Below are positions 22,539-29,441 of a stretch of 35,469 bases of DNA, piece after piece. The stretch's first letter is position 1. Every line of letters begins with the position of its first letter. Under the pieces are notes generated by a model. That model did no database searches, was not told the DNA's origin, and saw only the letters and a list, made by a program, of their open reading frames with translations. Position numbers and translations under genes: made by a program. Origin of the DNA: an uncultured delta proteobacterium (lineage in GTDB: Bacteria > RBG-13-61-14 > DRUE01). Location of the stretch: positions 1-35,469 of the forward strand of contig CAIYYW010000036.1 of the NCBI GenBank assembly GCA_903930515.1. The letters run 5' to 3'.

Positions 22539-23603
22539 ATGAAAGCCCTGGTTTTAAGCGGAGGCCGGGGCACCCGGCTCAGGCCCATCACCCATACCCG
22601 GGCCAAGCAATTGATCCCGGTGGCGAACCAGCCGGTGTTGTTTTACGGCCTGAAGGCCATTGCCGAGGCCGGGATCAAACAGGTCGGGATCGTGGTGGGA
22701 GACACCGCGGAAGAGATCAAGCAGGCCGTCGGGGACGGGGAAAAATTCGGACTTCAGGTCACTTACATCTATCAGCAGGAGCCGCTCGGTCTCGCCCACG
22801 CGGTCCTGGTCAGCAAAAAATTCCTGGGCAGCGAGCCGTTCGTGATGTATCTGGGAGACAATTTGCTCAAGAGCGGTGTCAGAAAATTGGTGGAACAATT
22901 TAACCGCGAGAAAGCCAACAGCCGGATCCTGCTGGCCAAGGTGAAAAATCCCAGCCAGTTCGGAGTGGCCGAGTTGAAAGGAGACAAGGTGGTCCGGCTG
23001 GTGGAGAAACCGAAAAAGCCGAAAAGCGATCTCGCCCTGGTCGGGGTTTATATCTTTGATAAAAATATTCACCAGGCCGTGGCCGCGATCAAGCCCAGCG
23101 CCAGGGGCGAGCTGGAAATCACCGACGCGATCCAATGGCTGATTGATCAGGGCAAGAAAGTCTGCTGGCAGGTGGTGGACGGCTGGTGGAAAGACACCGG
23201 CAAGGTGGAGGATTTGCTGGAAGCCAACCGGATGATCCTGGACGAGCTGGAGGAAAAGATTGAAGGCAAGCTGGATTCGGAGAGCAAAATTGAGTTCCGG
23301 GTCAGGATTGAAAAAGGAGCCGTGATCAAAAGGAGCAGGATCCGCGGACCCGTGATCATCGGGCCGGGAACCGTCATTGAGGATTCCTATATCGGTCCCT
23401 TTACCTCCATCTCGGAAAATTGCCTGATCCGCTCCGCGGAGATCGAGCACAGCATCATCATGGCCGAAAGCAAAATTGAAAACCTCTCCCAGCGGCTCTC
23501 CGACAGCCTGATCGGAAGAAACGCCGTCATCAGATGCTCCAAACAAAAACCCGGCGCCTTCCGCCTGATCATCGGAGACAGATCGGAAGTGGATCTGGTT
23601 TAA
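22539..23603 (+). CDS. rmlA: Glucose-1-phosphate thymidylyltransferase, long form
   Basis: 354 residues, the long type with a C-terminal left-handed beta-helix (about 245-354, hexapeptide-like GPVIIGPGTVIEDSYIGPFTSI), rather than the 290-residue enterobacterial form. The nucleotidyl-transfer signature GGRGTRLRPITHTRAKQLIP starts at residue 8, and YLGDNLL carries the metal-binding Asp. It joins dTTP and glucose-1-phosphate to make dTDP-glucose, the first step to dTDP-rhamnose. Genes for the following steps lie directly downstream. Confidence 0.92.
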   Translation: MKALVLSGGRGTRLRPITHTRAKQLIPVANQPVLFYGLKAIAEAGIKQVGIVVGDTAEEIKQAVGDGEKFGLQVTYIYQQEPLGLAHAVLVSKKFLGSEPFVMYLGDNLLKSGVRKLVEQFNREKANSRILLAKVKNPSQFGVAELKGDKVVRLVEKPKKPKSDLALVGVYIFDKNIHQAVAAIKPSARGELEITDAIQWLIDQGKKVCWQVVDGWWKDTGKVEDLLEANRMILDELEEKIEGKLDSESKIEFRVRIEKGAVIKRSRIRGPVIIGPGTVIEDSYIGPFTSISENCLIRSAEIEHSIIMAESKIENLSQRLSDSLIGRNAVIRCSKQKPGAFRLIIGDRSEVDLV

Positions 23604-23618
23604 ATGAAGGAGAAAAAA

Positions 23619-24074
23619 GTGATTCAAGGCGTGATCGTAAAAAAACTGAAAGTGGTTCCGGACGAGCGGGGAATACTGATGGAGCTGCTCCGGTCGGATG
23701 ACGGGTTCTTTGAGAAATTCGGCCAGGCCTATATCACCAGCGCGTATCCGGGGGTGGTCAAGGCCTGGCACCGGCATAAGAAACAGGTGGACCATTTCGC
23801 CTGCCTCAAGGGAATGGCCAAGCTGGCGCTCTATGACGGCCGGGCAAAATCAAAAAGCAAAGGCGAACTAAACGAGTTCTTCATCGGCGAGCATAATCCG
23901 GTCCTGATCCGGATCCCGGCCGGGGTCTGGCACGGATACAAATGCGTGTCGGAAACCGAATGTATTTGCATCAATCTCCCGACCGAGCTTTACCAATACG
24001 ACCGTCCGGACGAGGAACGGATTGACCCGCATAAAAATAAAATCCCATATCAGTGGGAGAGAAAAGACCGCTAA
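23619..24074 (+). CDS. dTDP-4-dehydrorhamnose 3,5-epimerase-like cupin
   Basis: 151 residues from a GTG start. An ATG at 23604 abuts the rmlA stop, but a perfect AAGGAG (23607-23612) sits inside that extension, 6 nt before the GTG at 23619, and starting there gives the family-like MIQGVIVKKLKVVPDERG. It is shorter than classical RmlC (about 180). Features are VKAWHRHKKQVDHF (His51, His53), IPAGVWHGY and the C-terminal YDRPDEERIDPH. It would epimerise dTDP-4-keto-6-deoxyglucose at C3 and C5, or only one position. Context between rmlA and rmlB supports the pathway; strict RmlC activity is not proven. Confidence 0.85.
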   Translation: MIQGVIVKKLKVVPDERGILMELLRSDDGFFEKFGQAYITSAYPGVVKAWHRHKKQVDHFACLKGMAKLALYDGRAKSKSKGELNEFFIGEHNPVLIRIPAGVWHGYKCVSETECICINLPTELYQYDRPDEERIDPHKNKIPYQWERKDR

Positions 24075-24077
24075 GCA

Positions 24078-25097
24078 ATGAAAATACTGGTTACCGGCGG
24101 GTGCGGATTTATCGGGTCCAATTTCATCCGGCTGATCCTCAATGAGACCAGCCACCAGGTGATTAACCTGGACAGCCTCACCTACGCCGGGAACCTGGAA
24201 AACCTGAAAGAGCTGGAAGGCAACCCGCATTATCAATTCCTCAAAGGCGACATCCGAGATCAAAAACTGGCGGAAAAAATTTTATCCGCGGGCATTGACG
24301 CGATCATCAATTTCGCGGCTGAAAGTCATGTGGACCGATCTATCCTGGACCCGCAAAGTTTCCTCCAAAGCAACTATTTCGGATGCGCAAATCTTCTGGA
24401 ATCCTGCAGAAAATTCCCGGTCAAGATTTTTCTCCAGATCAGCACCGACGAGGTTTACGGTCCGTTCCCCAAGGGCCTGGCCGATGAGGGTTGCCGACTC
24501 AACCCCAGCTCCCCCTACTCCGCGAGCAAGGCCGGAGCGGACCTGCTCTGCTTTTCCTATCATAAGACCTTCGGCCTGCCCGTCACCATCGCCCGGCTAT
24601 CCAATAATTACGGCCCTTATCAATTCCCGGAAAAGCTGATCCCGCTCTTCATTACCAACGCCTTGGAAGATCAGCCGCTCCCGCTTTACGGAGATGGCTT
24701 GCAAGTCCGGGACTGGATTTTCGTGGAAGACGCCTGCCAAGCCCTGCTCTTGATTTTGGAAGAAGGACGGGCCGGAGAAATATACAATGTCGGGGGCGGC
24801 AACCAGAGGACCAATTTGGAAGTGACCCGGATCATCCTACAGGAATTGAAAAGATCAAAAAGGCTGATAAAATATATCCAGGACCGGCCCGGACACGACC
24901 GGAGATACGCGCTGGATTCAAACAAGATCAAAAAAGAACTCGGGTTTGCCCCCGCGCTTAAATTTGAAGACGGCCTGCTCCTGACCGTCAAATGGTATCA
25001 GGACCACAAAAAATGGTGGCAGAAGGTGAAAAGCGGGGAGTATCGGCTATATTATGAAGGATTTTATCGGCAGAAATTGGGGTTGAAGAAAAAATAA
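24078..25097 (+). CDS. rmlB: dTDP-glucose 4,6-dehydratase
   Basis: 339 residues, an extended short-chain dehydrogenase. The NAD-binding TGGCGFIGSNFIRLIL is at 6-21; the catalytic TDEVYG supplies the Thr, Asp and Glu residues that define 4,6-dehydratases; YSASKAGAD is the YxxxK motif. It converts dTDP-glucose to the 4-keto-6-deoxy sugar. The gene starts 3 nt after the rmlC-like gene. RLSNNYGPYQFPEKLIPLFI and YGDGLQVRDWIFVED are family signatures. Confidence 0.96.
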   Translation: MKILVTGGCGFIGSNFIRLILNETSHQVINLDSLTYAGNLENLKELEGNPHYQFLKGDIRDQKLAEKILSAGIDAIINFAAESHVDRSILDPQSFLQSNYFGCANLLESCRKFPVKIFLQISTDEVYGPFPKGLADEGCRLNPSSPYSASKAGADLLCFSYHKTFGLPVTIARLSNNYGPYQFPEKLIPLFITNALEDQPLPLYGDGLQVRDWIFVEDACQALLLILEEGRAGEIYNVGGGNQRTNLEVTRIILQELKRSKRLIKYIQDRPGHDRRYALDSNKIKKELGFAPALKFEDGLLLTVKWYQDHKKWWQKVKSGEYRLYYEGFYRQKLGLKKK

Positions 25098-25117: not shown

Positions 25118-25873
25118 ATGAGACGACTAATGGCGATGATGATTTTATTCGGGGCGGCGCTCTGCCTGCTGCCGGTCGCGGGACATTCGGAAAATGTGGT
25201 TGCTGTTTTTGGCGGGCAGTGTTGGACCCGTCCTCACGACCTGACCGTGCAACAGCCCATCTCTAAGAATTACCTGGTGGTGGATGACGCCACTTTCCTG
25301 GACGACAGCTATGTGGGTCCCATTTATTACGGCATCCGGATCAGTCATTTCTTCAAGGACCATCCCAGTCTGGGGATTGAAGCCGAATTCTTTCATCCCA
25401 AGGCGCGGCTGAATGTGGACCGGGACGCGGATGTCCGGGGCGAATGGCACGGCAAGCGCATCAACCAGGAGGTTGATTTGAACGACTACATCCAGAGTTT
25501 TGAAATCTCCCACGGATTCAACTTCCTGCTCGTGAACGGGGTTTACCGCTACGGCTTCTTCAAGACCGACAAGATCCCTTACGGCCGGCTGCAACTGCTG
25601 ATGAGGGCCGGGGCCGGAATCACCATGCTCCATCCCGAGAGCATCGTGGATCATCAGCAACGATATATTGAAAGCGGCGGATACGAGCTCGGCGATTACG
25701 GGTTCCAGCTTTCGCCCGGACTGGAGTTTACCATCTGGAGAGGGATTGACGGGTTCTTGGAATACAAATACACCTACGCCGAGATGGACGATGTGACCAT
25801 CAAATACGGGACCGCGGACACCGTGTTCACCACCGACCATATCGCCTTCGGGATCTCATATCATTTTAAATGA
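25118..25873 (+). CDS. Outer-membrane beta-barrel protein
   Basis: 251 residues. A signal peptide covers about 1-24 (MRRLMAMM then a hydrophobic run, cut near GHS-E). The mature part alternates polar and aromatic residues in strand-sized segments, and the C terminus IAFGISYHFK ends in an aromatic just before the last residue, as in barrel proteins of the OmpA-like/OmpW-like type. The AAGGGAGG ribosome site is very strong. It lies between rmlB and rmlD with a 4-nt overlap into rmlD, so it is part of the polysaccharide operon; a role in surface-glycan placement is inference. No enzyme motif is recognised. Confidence 0.72.
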   Translation: MRRLMAMMILFGAALCLLPVAGHSENVVAVFGGQCWTRPHDLTVQQPISKNYLVVDDATFLDDSYVGPIYYGIRISHFFKDHPSLGIEAEFFHPKARLNVDRDADVRGEWHGKRINQEVDLNDYIQSFEISHGFNFLLVNGVYRYGFFKTDKIPYGRLQLLMRAGAGITMLHPESIVDHQQRYIESGGYELGDYGFQLSPGLEFTIWRGIDGFLEYKYTYAEMDDVTIKYGTADTVFTTDHIAFGISYHFK

Positions 25874-26727
25874 GTAATCGGCGAATCCTGCTTTTGGGAG
25901 GAGCCGGCCTGCTCGGATCGGCGCTGAAGGATGAGCTTTCAGCCGGGGGGCATCTCTTGCTCGCGCCCGCTCATTCCGAACTGGAGATCGCCGACTATGA
26001 CAAGATTCTGCTCTGTGCGAGGGAATTTAGTCCAGATACCATCGTCAATTGCGCCGGATTCAACCAGGTGGATGAATGCGAGCGCAGGAAGGAGCTGGCC
26101 TTCCAGGCCAACGCCTTCGGCGCCGGCAATTTGGCCCGGATCGCGGCGGAAATCGGCGCGGCCATTTTTCAGGTCTCCAGCGATTACATTTTCAAGGGAG
26201 ATAAAAAAGGCGAGTACCGGGAAGAGGATCTCCCGGACCCGCTCAATCTTTACGGAAAAAGCAAGCTGCTCGGAGAGAGCGCGGTCCGGGAAAACGCCCG
26301 GGAGTTTTGCGTCATCCGCGCCAGTTGGCTGTTCGGGCCGGGCGGTCCTAATTTCATCAGCAAGATTTTAACCAAATGGAAAGCCGGGGCTCAGGAATTG
26401 AAGGTGGTCTCGGATGAAAAGGGAAAACCCACTTACAGTCTGGACCTGGCAAACGCGATCCGGCTCTCAGTTGAGCGGAACCTGAGAGGGATATATCATT
26501 TCTGTAACCAGGGAACGGTGAGCTGGATGGAGCTGGCACAGGAGGTGTTTGAAATCATCGGGAAGGGGCCAAAGCTGATCCCGGTCAGCGCGGAAGCCTA
26601 CAGGCTCCCGGCCCAAAGGCCCAAAAACTCCGCGCTCAGCTCAAAAAAGATTGAGGCCGCCCTCGGGTTGACGATCCGGCCTCACCTGGAGGCCCTGAAG
26701 GATTATTTGGAAAAAATGGAAATCTGA
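25870..26727 (+). CDS. rmlD: dTDP-4-dehydrorhamnose reductase
   Basis: 285 residues. It reduces dTDP-4-keto-L-rhamnose to dTDP-L-rhamnose with NAD(P)H. The dinucleotide motif is LLGGAGLLGSAL at 7-18; NCAGFNQVDECE and VSSDYIFKGDKKGEYREED and YGKSKLLGE (YxxxK) follow, all family markers. Its ATGA start overlaps the outer-membrane protein stop. This completes a full rmlA-C-B-D set on one transcript. Confidence 0.93.
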   Translation: MSNRRILLLGGAGLLGSALKDELSAGGHLLLAPAHSELEIADYDKILLCAREFSPDTIVNCAGFNQVDECERRKELAFQANAFGAGNLARIAAEIGAAIFQVSSDYIFKGDKKGEYREEDLPDPLNLYGKSKLLGESAVRENAREFCVIRASWLFGPGGPNFISKILTKWKAGAQELKVVSDEKGKPTYSLDLANAIRLSVERNLRGIYHFCNQGTVSWMELAQEVFEIIGKGPKLIPVSAEAYRLPAQRPKNSALSSKKIEAALGLTIRPHLEALKDYLEKMEI

Positions 26728-26738
26728 AGGAGCAAGTT

Positions 26739-27287
26739 ATGAAACAAGTCTGCGCGTTTTGCGGGAGAGCCAAGGGGCAAGTCAAGGGCCTGTTCCGCGG
26801 GCCGGAGCTTCTGATCTGCAACGAGTGCATTGAGGATTACAATTCCCGACTGCACCAGGGCGAGGTCGGAACTAGCCGGGAGCTCCGGGAGGAATTGGAA
26901 CAGACGGTGGCGGACAGTTTCCGCAAGATGGTGGGCAACCTGGACCTGGGACCGCTCCACGACAAGTATCAGTTGCTGATGAAGGTGAAGTTCAAGGAGG
27001 AGCCGGGCGGGCCTACTTTTGAGAAGGTGTTTGACGAATTCAAGCGCGGGGTGGAGCAGGTGATCACCGCGGACGACTATCAGACCCACTACGACCTGGG
27101 GATCGCTTACCACGAGATGGGACTGAAGGATGACGCCTTCCGCGAGCTGATCCAGAGCATGCGCTATTCGCTCCGGCTCAAGAACTGGGAAAAGGCGATT
27201 GAGGTTCTGAGCGTGATCTTTTACATCGGATCCGATCCCAAACAGGTGATCGCGATGGTCTCCGAAATCTTCCAGGAAAGGGGATAG
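26739..27287 (+). CDS. ClpX-type C4 zinc finger fused to TPR-like helices (no ATPase)
   Basis: 182 residues. Residues 1-37 are a C4 zinc-binding domain like the N terminus of ClpX: Cys5-x2-Cys8 and Cys27-x2-Cys30 with the FCG and LICNECIEDYN pattern. There is no AAA+ Walker motif anywhere. Residues 47-110 are charged helices, and about 114-180 resemble TPR repeats (HYDLGIAYHEMGLKDDAFRELIQSM, then KNWEKAIEVLSVIFYIG). In ClpX the zinc domain dimerises and recruits substrates and adaptors, so this could be an adaptor or decoy for ClpXP, but that is inference. It is 11 nt after rmlD and 8 nt before ugd, inside the polysaccharide operon. Confidence 0.8.
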   Translation: MKQVCAFCGRAKGQVKGLFRGPELLICNECIEDYNSRLHQGEVGTSRELREELEQTVADSFRKMVGNLDLGPLHDKYQLLMKVKFKEEPGGPTFEKVFDEFKRGVEQVITADDYQTHYDLGIAYHEMGLKDDAFRELIQSMRYSLRLKNWEKAIEVLSVIFYIGSDPKQVIAMVSEIFQERG

Positions 27288-27295
27288 CAGGATAG

Positions 27296-28618
27296 ATGAA
27301 CATCGGCGTGATCGGGGTGGGATATGTGGGGCTGGTCGCGGGAACCTGTTTGGCGGAGAGCGGGAACGATGTGATCGCCGCGGATATGGACGAGGGGAAG
27401 ATCGCCCTGCTCAAGCAGAACCGGATTCCGATCTACGAGCCGGGCCTGGAAGAGTTGATTGCGCGTAACGCCAAGGAAGGCCGGCTAAAGTTCACCACTG
27501 ACATTGACCAGGCGATCCGCGACTCCGAGGTGATCTTCATCGCCGTGGGCACTCCCTCCAATGAAGACGGGTCCGCGGACTTAAGCGCGGTTTACGAAGT
27601 TGCCCGGCGGATCGGAAAAAATCTCGCCGGCTATAAGCTGATTGTGGATAAAAGCACGGTGCCGGTCGGGACCGGCGACCAGGTGGAGGAGTTGATCAAG
27701 GCGGAGAGCCATTCCACCAACTTTGATGTGGTGAGCAACCCGGAGTTTATGAAAGAGGGGACCGCGCTGGACGACTTTATGAAGCCGGACCGGGTGATCA
27801 TCGGCACCGGCTCGGACCTGGCTTATGAAGTGATGCACCGAATTTACGAGCCTTATGTCCGGACCGAGAACCCGATCATCCGGATGGACCGCCGGAGCGC
27901 GGAGATGACCAAGTATGTGGCCAACTCCATGCTCGCCACCAAGATCAGCTTCATCAACGAGATGGCCAACATCTGCGAAAATGTCGGCGCCGACATTGAC
28001 GCGGTCCGACGCGGGATCGGATTCGACCGCCGGATCGGGTTCCAATTCCTCTTCCCCGGGGTCGGCTATGGCGGGTCCTGCTTCCCCAAGGATGTGGACG
28101 CGCTCAGCCGGACCGCGGACCAGTCCGGGGCCCACGCCAAAATTCTCAAGGCGGTTCAGGAAGTCAACCTTCGCCAGAAACGCAAGATGGTGGACAAGGT
28201 CAAAAAGCATTACGGCAAGCATTTGAGCGGGCTGGCAATCGCGCTCTGGGGACTCAGCTTCAAGCCCAAAACCGACGATATGAGGGAAGCGCCCGCGATT
28301 GAAATCATCAACGGATTGATGGAACTGGGCGTCAAAGTCCGAGCCTATGACCCGGTGGCAATGGATCAGGCGAAAAAGATCTTCGGGGATAAAATTGAAT
28401 ACGGCGACAACCCCTACCAGACCTTGGAAAAAGCAAACGGACTCGTGATCGTCACGGAATGGAACGAGTTCCGCCGTCCCAATTTCCAGAAAATCAGACA
28501 ACTCCTCCTGGAGCCGGTGATCTTTGACGGCCGCAATATCTACGAGCCCAAGGATATGGCCAAGCTCGGATTTGTCTATTATTCGATCGGAAGACCGACG
28601 GTGAATGCGTCAAAGTAG
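27296..28618 (+). CDS. ugd: UDP-glucose 6-dehydrogenase
   Basis: 440 residues. NAD-binding GVIGVGYVGLVAGTCLAE at 4-21; NPEFMKEGTALDDFMKPDRVIIG in the substrate site; catalytic Cys262 in GYGGSCFPKDVDAL. It oxidises UDP-glucose to UDP-glucuronate, a precursor for acidic polysaccharides and, through decarboxylation, pentoses. The start is 8 nt after the ClpX-zinc/TPR gene, and it closes the sugar-nucleotide operon. Confidence 0.96.
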   Translation: MNIGVIGVGYVGLVAGTCLAESGNDVIAADMDEGKIALLKQNRIPIYEPGLEELIARNAKEGRLKFTTDIDQAIRDSEVIFIAVGTPSNEDGSADLSAVYEVARRIGKNLAGYKLIVDKSTVPVGTGDQVEELIKAESHSTNFDVVSNPEFMKEGTALDDFMKPDRVIIGTGSDLAYEVMHRIYEPYVRTENPIIRMDRRSAEMTKYVANSMLATKISFINEMANICENVGADIDAVRRGIGFDRRIGFQFLFPGVGYGGSCFPKDVDALSRTADQSGAHAKILKAVQEVNLRQKRKMVDKVKKHYGKHLSGLAIALWGLSFKPKTDDMREAPAIEIINGLMELGVKVRAYDPVAMDQAKKIFGDKIEYGDNPYQTLEKANGLVIVTEWNEFRRPNFQKIRQLLLEPVIFDGRNIYEPKDMAKLGFVYYSIGRPTVNASK

Positions 28619-28703: not shown

Positions 28704-28784
28704 TCAGCCGAATAATTTCCTCGCCAGGCGGCTTCGCCCTGATTTGATCGCTCCCTCCGGACAGACCTCCTGAATGCAGAGCAG
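28704..28784 (-). pseudogene. Remnant of a DUF362/ferredoxin gene 3' end, copy A
   Basis: On the minus strand 26 codons read QEVCPEGAIKSGRSRLARK then LFG and a stop, matching the C terminus of the intact gene at 29532-30728. Compared with that gene it lacks 9 bp spanning the first stop and uses the next stop; one ferredoxin Cys position is replaced. No upstream coding remains. Confidence 0.75.
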
Positions 28785-28815
28785 GCGCCCGGGTTTTGGC
28801 GGTTGCATTCAGGAG
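28767..28815. repeat. Perfect 12-bp inverted repeat at the remnant/toxin-antitoxin junction
   Basis: CTCCTGAATGCA (28767-28778) and its exact complement TGCATTCAGGAG (28804-28815) are separated by 25 bp. The left arm lies in the ferredoxin-tail remnant and the right arm near the antitoxin promoter. It could be an operator, a terminator stem or a rearrangement scar. Confidence 0.55.
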
Positions 28816-28848
28816 TTAAGAGGGGTATTGTCAGAATTGGAGAGCGCT

Positions 28849-29082
28849 ATGAAAAGGTTTAAAAGAATCACTATCAATCCGGCGCAGATGGCAGGAGTGC
28901 CCTGCATCCGGGGCTTGAGGATTCCGGTTTCCACCATTGTGAAGATGGTTGCGGAGGGGATGACCGCGAGGAAGATTCTGGATAATTATCCGGATCTGAA
29001 GAAAGACGACATCAAGGAAGCGCTGAGATACGCGGCCGAGGTTCTGGAAGAGAGAGAAATACCGCTGATCTCCGCCAAATGA
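28849..29082 (+). CDS. DUF433 antitoxin-like protein
   Basis: 77 residues. It has the DUF433 pattern: ITINPAQMAGVPCIRGLRIPVSTIVKMVAEG, then ILDNYPDLKKDDIKEALRYAAE, a small winged-helix-like DNA-binding domain that in bacteria pairs with PIN-like toxins. I choose the ATG at 28849, preceded by GGAGAG at a 4-nt gap, over an upstream ATG at 28774 that would start inside the inverted repeat. Its stop overlaps the next gene by ATGA. Expected role: neutralise the adjacent nuclease-like toxin and repress the pair. Confidence 0.9.
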   Translation: MKRFKRITINPAQMAGVPCIRGLRIPVSTIVKMVAEGMTARKILDNYPDLKKDDIKEALRYAAEVLEEREIPLISAK

Positions 29083-29441
29083 AATTCCTGGTTGATAATG
29101 CGGTTTCACCCAAAATCGCCCTGGCTCTCAGAGAAAAAGGTTATGATGCCCGCCACCTGCGTGATTACAATATGCAAGGCGCTACCGATCGCGAGGTTTT
29201 TGATCTTGCCTTGCGCGAGAAAAGAATTTTAATCTCCGCGGATACGGATTTCGGCGCTATGCTTGCTTTTCAAAACTGGCAAGGACCATCCTTGATCCTC
29301 TTCCGGGAGATCACTCATATTCCCGAAAAGCAGGCGGAAGTTCTTTTGCTCAATTTAAGAAGAATCAGGCCCCACCTGGAAGAAGGCTGCGTGGTGGTTC
29401 TGGGAAAAAAGAGAATCAGGTTGAGATTATTTAACAAATAA
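29079..29441 (+). CDS. DUF5615 PIN-like toxin
   Basis: 120 residues of the DUF5615/Mut7-C-like PIN fold. Acidic residues expected at the metal site are Asp6 (FLVDN), Asp37 (TDREV) and Asp55/Asp57 (ISADTDFG), and the RRIRPHLEEGCVVVL end is typical of the family. Such proteins are predicted RNases paired with DUF433 partners. Translation is coupled to the antitoxin. The cell target and whether it is active are unknown. Confidence 0.9.
   Translation: MKFLVDNAVSPKIALALREKGYDARHLRDYNMQGATDREVFDLALREKRILISADTDFGAMLAFQNWQGPSLILFREITHIPEKQAEVLLLNLRRIRPHLEEGCVVVLGKKRIRLRLFNK

Follow-up and report, generated by a model that had tools for sequence, protein, structure and literature searches.

A ClpX-type zinc finger joined to an SgmX-type module in a polysaccharide operon, a candidate small MglA effector

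What does a short protein with the zinc finger of ClpX do among sugar-nucleotide genes when no ATPase follows the finger? The question was raised by a 182-aa gene in the window, by which we mean the whole stretch of 35,469 nucleotides analysed, from an uncultured delta proteobacterium (Table 1). The open reading frame starts with ATG, has a GAAGGAG-like ribosome site just 5', and lies 11 bases 3' of rmlD and 8 bases 5' of ugd. Orthologues were found in 3/3 examined genomes of this small phylum, with 74% (G001) and 49% (G002) identity to the window protein, and in the closest orthologue pair dN/dS was about 0.25 (NG86) and the third codon position was the most variable. The gene is real and under purifying selection across its homologues. 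Against G001, the module was 83%, the linker 75%, the zinc finger 73% and the C-terminal tail 56% identical to the window protein; against G002 the figures were 65%, 62%, 44% and 21%. The module stands above both the finger and the tail, therefore we regarded the module and the linker as the most constrained parts.

Table 1. Coordinates of the 182-aa gene, its parts and its neighbours in the window
Feature	Position	Strand	Evidence
Gene of the zinc finger-linker-SgmX module protein, 182 aa	26739..27287	+	Open reading frame; orthologues in 3/3 genomes of the phylum; codon pattern; dN/dS
ClpX-type C4 zinc-binding domain (ZBD), residues 4-36	26748..26846	+	Pfam, PDB search, Foldseek
Helical linker, residues ~42-89, no known family	26862..27005	+	Conserved across orthologues; AlphaFold confidence low here
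SgmX module, residues 93-142, TFEKVFDEFKRGVEQVITADDYQTHYDLGIAYHEMGLKDDAFREL onwards; a helix and the opening repeat of the final three in SgmX	27015..27164	+	NCBIfam, bona fide SgmX, alignment
C-terminal tail, residues 143-182; two helices predicted where SgmX has TPR13-14	27165..27284	+	Alignment, AlphaFold
rmlD, dTDP-4-dehydrorhamnose reductase family, upstream neighbour	25870..26727	+	Pfam RmlD_sub_bind, E 4e-81
ugd, UDP-glucose 6-dehydrogenase family, directly downstream	27296..28618	+	Pfam UDPG_MGDP_dh domains; synteny in 3/3 genomes
Genes of a sugar nucleotidyltransferase, an RmlC-like epimerase/cupin and an NAD-dependent sugar dehydratase	22539..25097	+	Pfam

The initial annotation had described a ClpX-like C4 domain with no ATPase behind it, and both statements held. 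The Pfam family zf-C4_ClpX (PF06689) matched residues 4-36 with E 6.3e-10 and 39.2 bits (cut-off 27), a phmmer search of the PDB up to an E of 1 returned ClpX chains only (best E 2.9e-5), C5, C8, C27 and C30 were invariant across the three orthologues, and the domain in the AlphaFold model superposed on the ClpX ZBD 2ds8 (Foldseek, rmsd 1.1 A over 40 columns). The domain thus groups with ClpX by profile, sequence and fold, and not with unrelated families. The AlphaFold model of the whole protein, computed from an input alignment without SgmX modules, was confident in the zinc finger (pLDDT block means of 77-90 over residues 1-40) and moderate in the C-terminal helices, with a pTM of 0.40; therefore the zinc finger was the sole structure match that we used. 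No AAA+ domain was matched by Pfam anywhere in the 182 aa, and the ClpX models scored 24-28 bits against cut-offs of 359-371. The Cys4 fold, the pattern CxFCG...GP...IC.EC and the N-terminal position are all shared with the ClpX ZBD; unlike in ClpX, no AAA+ ATPase comes after the finger and the gene lies outside the clpPX operon, clpX proper of the same genome being on a separate contig in the order tig-clpP-clpX-lon (tig, clpP and lon named from sequence). A broken ClpX was ruled out, since there is no ATPase remnant and the gene is under purifying selection.

The C-terminal half had been called TPR-like; it is helical, but more specifically it is the module that opens the MglA-binding TPR12-14 region of SgmX, which points to polarity signalling by MglA. 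All Pfam TPR families stayed below cut-off (the best, TPR_20, with E 0.007), and the NCBIfam model of SgmX, NF052243, fitted residues 94-142 far better (E 7e-13, 47.8 bits, profile positions 875-923 of 1065), so that the generic TPR assignment was dropped. A bona fide SgmX, that of G030 (1985 bits, cut-off 1800), aligned with the window module over its residues 848-892 with 25/45 identities (56%, E 5e-14). In this SgmX, as in the SgmX-like proteins of both G001 and G002, the match falls on the first of three repeats that fill the rest of the chain up to the C terminus; by this repeat count in relatives, the M. xanthus sequence itself aside, it is probably the counterpart of TPR12 in M. xanthus SgmX. 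When the window protein and its two orthologues were aligned with over 30 module proteins, all three kept F..VF.EFK.GV...V..D...HYDLGIAY.EMGL.DDA, of which the block from EFK onwards is shared with SgmX (MXAN_5766, NF052243), an MglA-GTP effector for type IV pili, again at the repeat that leads the final three. Beyond residue 142, TPR13-14 were not recognisable in that alignment, the sequence being divergent, and AlphaFold predicted two divergent helices. The window protein is not a whole SgmX, which is defined by more than 1800 bits with NF052243, a length of ~1,060 aa and 14 TPRs; only residues 94-142 match, the N-terminal TPR array is absent, and the zinc finger and the location in a sugar operon are foreign to SgmX. 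What it has of the C-terminal, MglA-binding part is the opening module, not the complete TPR12-14 unit.

How widely the combination occurs was examined with a profile of linker plus module against 386 genomes, three of which represent the phylum. No whole-profile match lay outside the phylum in the 386 genomes, the outside matches sitting in larger open frames of at least 337 aa. Among five genomes of the phylum of G180, the genome with the nearest MglA beyond the window's own phylum, only large module proteins and ClpX were found and the fusion was not. Relatives were not found on plasmids and viral contigs, and when contigs of named genomes were scanned with the three-member alignment, the zinc-finger motif being among the scan patterns, ClpX dominated the matches listed. 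The joining of a ClpX-type ZBD to the SgmX module is a new domain combination, rare and confined to the phylum on the present sampling of 386 genomes; the phrase "ClpX C4-type zinc finger" was likewise not found in the literature searched. Both relatives (G001 and G002) have a full-length SgmX homologue beside an ATPase-like gene, and none was found in the window's genome (G000, ~93% complete, 401 contigs), where its absence may reflect loss or an assembly gap.

Previous work showed that TPR12-14 of M. xanthus SgmX alone are sufficient for binding MglA-GTP, not MglA-GDP (PMC7668184; see also PMC11580455). We found MglA (195 aa) in 3/3 genomes of the phylum beside a Roadblock-domain gene, an mglBA-type pair, which in the window's genome is on another contig than the fusion gene. 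Across bacteria, MglA (E <= 1e-20) was present in 71/72 genomes with the module and in 143/386 overall (Fisher p 8e-36, to be read as indicative, since families share some dependence and the genomes sampled are chosen relatives); the lone module genome without MglA was G356, which is 91% complete. With one genome per family (G002-G153), MglA occurred in 33/33 with the module and 25/119 without. PilT was present in 312/386 genomes, and type IV pili were rejected as a confounder because the association persisted within PilT-positive families (32/32 with the module, 22/94 without). Larger SgmX-like proteins account for most of the co-occurrence, which is no test of the 182-aa protein. A closer genetic link was seen in G064, in which a protein that combines a weak receiver domain with the module and TPR13-14 (L161:2642-3655) is encoded one base upstream of mglA (L161:3657-4538), whose product has a long C-terminal extension. 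Like the window protein, it is short and has the same module joined to an unrelated N-terminal domain; unlike it, that domain is a receiver, TPR13-14 are kept and the gene is directly upstream of mglA. The module is thus also joined to other N-terminal domains and found immediately next to mglA, and we consider the G064 protein another candidate architecture for an MglA effector. Nor is the module the sole route to MglA, since Bdellovibrio SgmX1/2 do not align to the C-terminal part of SgmX and SgmX1 (Bd2492) is nevertheless reported as an MglA interactor (PMC11025332; PMC7668184).

Our leading answer, which we put at slightly under an even chance, is that the 182-aa protein acts as a small effector or adaptor of MglA, which dimerises or docks through its ZBD and couples the polarity switch to polysaccharide production. 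The ClpX-type ZBD would dimerise the protein or supply a docking surface, the SgmX-type module would dock on GTP-bound MglA, a Ras-like GTPase, and, being made together with dTDP-sugar and UDP-glucuronate enzymes, the protein would link the MglA polarity/type IV pilus switch with surface-polysaccharide production; in the simplest output, it would bring to MglA-GTP either an enzyme of the operon or a partner of ClpX. We infer MglA binding from homology to a region assayed with its three repeats together, and we infer the dimerisation and the output as well. The match to the SgmX module, its co-occurrence with MglA, the neighbour of mglA in G064, the mglBA pair in 3/3 genomes and the conservation of the module support this answer. 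The missing TPR13-14, the poorly conserved tail and the separate contig of mglBA count against it, as does the lone first repeat, because binding was shown for TPR12-14 together and not for TPR12 by itself; with only that repeat kept, binding may be weak, dependent on ZBD dimerisation, or lost. Polysaccharide-deficient M. xanthus mutants have fewer pili for an unexplained cause (PMC11580455), so that a direct link from MglA to a sugar operon would be testable, and the protein, if an effector, would connect the polarity switch with polysaccharide precursors. More broadly, our data suggest that the MglA-binding part of SgmX holds a portable, sequence-traceable module, which may help to single out candidate effectors of MglA in many families of bacteria.

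An alternative that we consider unlikely is that the protein modulates ClpX: its free ZBD would pair with ClpX or capture adaptors, its module would bring a client, which might be MglA or an enzyme of the operon, and the turnover of this client by ClpXP would go up or down. The domain is clearly ClpX-type with four cysteines present, clpX and clpP exist in the window's genome, and previous studies indicated that ZBDs dimerise and bind LKxh-type peptides and that added ClpX ZBD inhibits RssB-dependent (RssB/sigma-S) degradation in vitro (PMC7226468); a free ZBD blocks adaptor-dependent turnover there, so such blocking is possible in principle. However, the ZBD is less conserved towards G002 than the module, at most 18/36 of its residues are identical to the sampled ClpX ZBDs, and the gene is distant from clpX. 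ClpX-type fingers were detected in 326/386 genomes, nearly all in one copy, and a single finger per genome was taken to be ClpX itself. The 12 genomes of the 386 with more than one included several ZBDs without ATPase, in other architectures and with no SgmX module. Proteins of G290 (L186), G217 (L189) and G349 (L194 and L196) resemble the window protein in having the finger outside ClpX and differ from it in that none has the SgmX module; among them, one combines repeat-like helices with two zinc fingers and one has a C-terminal finger. Because such architectures exist, a ZBD by itself implies no ClpXP role. For the window protein, contact with ClpX is not favoured over a purely structural role of the finger, and the ClpX idea, as an account of what the finger does, is compatible with the MglA effector reading. 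The protein at L196:1495-3066 of G349 has repeat-like helices, two ClpX-type zinc fingers at its C terminus and no ATPase.

The protein could instead be a local regulator, a scaffold of zinc finger and helices that binds Ugd without involvement of MglA or ClpX, which we likewise hold to be improbable. The argument for it is position: the gene is always directly 5' of ugd, G002 included, and in two of the three genomes it overlaps the ugd start by 4 bases. Of the two neighbours named in the initial annotation, only ugd is therefore retained in 3/3 genomes; rmlD is retained within the genus only, and in G002 it is absent between the dehydratase gene and the fusion gene. The SgmX-specific module and its tracking of MglA across bacteria would, however, be left unexplained by such a regulator. 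A further idea, a GTPase-controlled proteolysis switch in which the protein would bring MglA-GTP or its client to ClpX, or withdraw ClpX adaptors, via the zinc finger, and so set how fast envelope-sugar enzymes or polarity factors are turned over, seems to us quite a long shot. That a fragment of an SgmX-like gene and a zinc finger were joined without function, as the roughly one of three C-terminal SgmX repeats still recognisable might suggest, is most improbable in view of purifying selection, presence in 3/3 genomes at 49-74% identity and stable synteny.

Two further observations were made around the operon. Between the dehydratase gene and rmlD, a predicted exported protein with no Pfam match is encoded at 25118-25873 (+), which is kept in G001 and absent at this place in G002. 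In addition, just after ugd, at 28774-29441 (+), a DUF433 gene overlaps a DUF5615 (PIN-like) gene, in the arrangement of a toxin-antitoxin pair.
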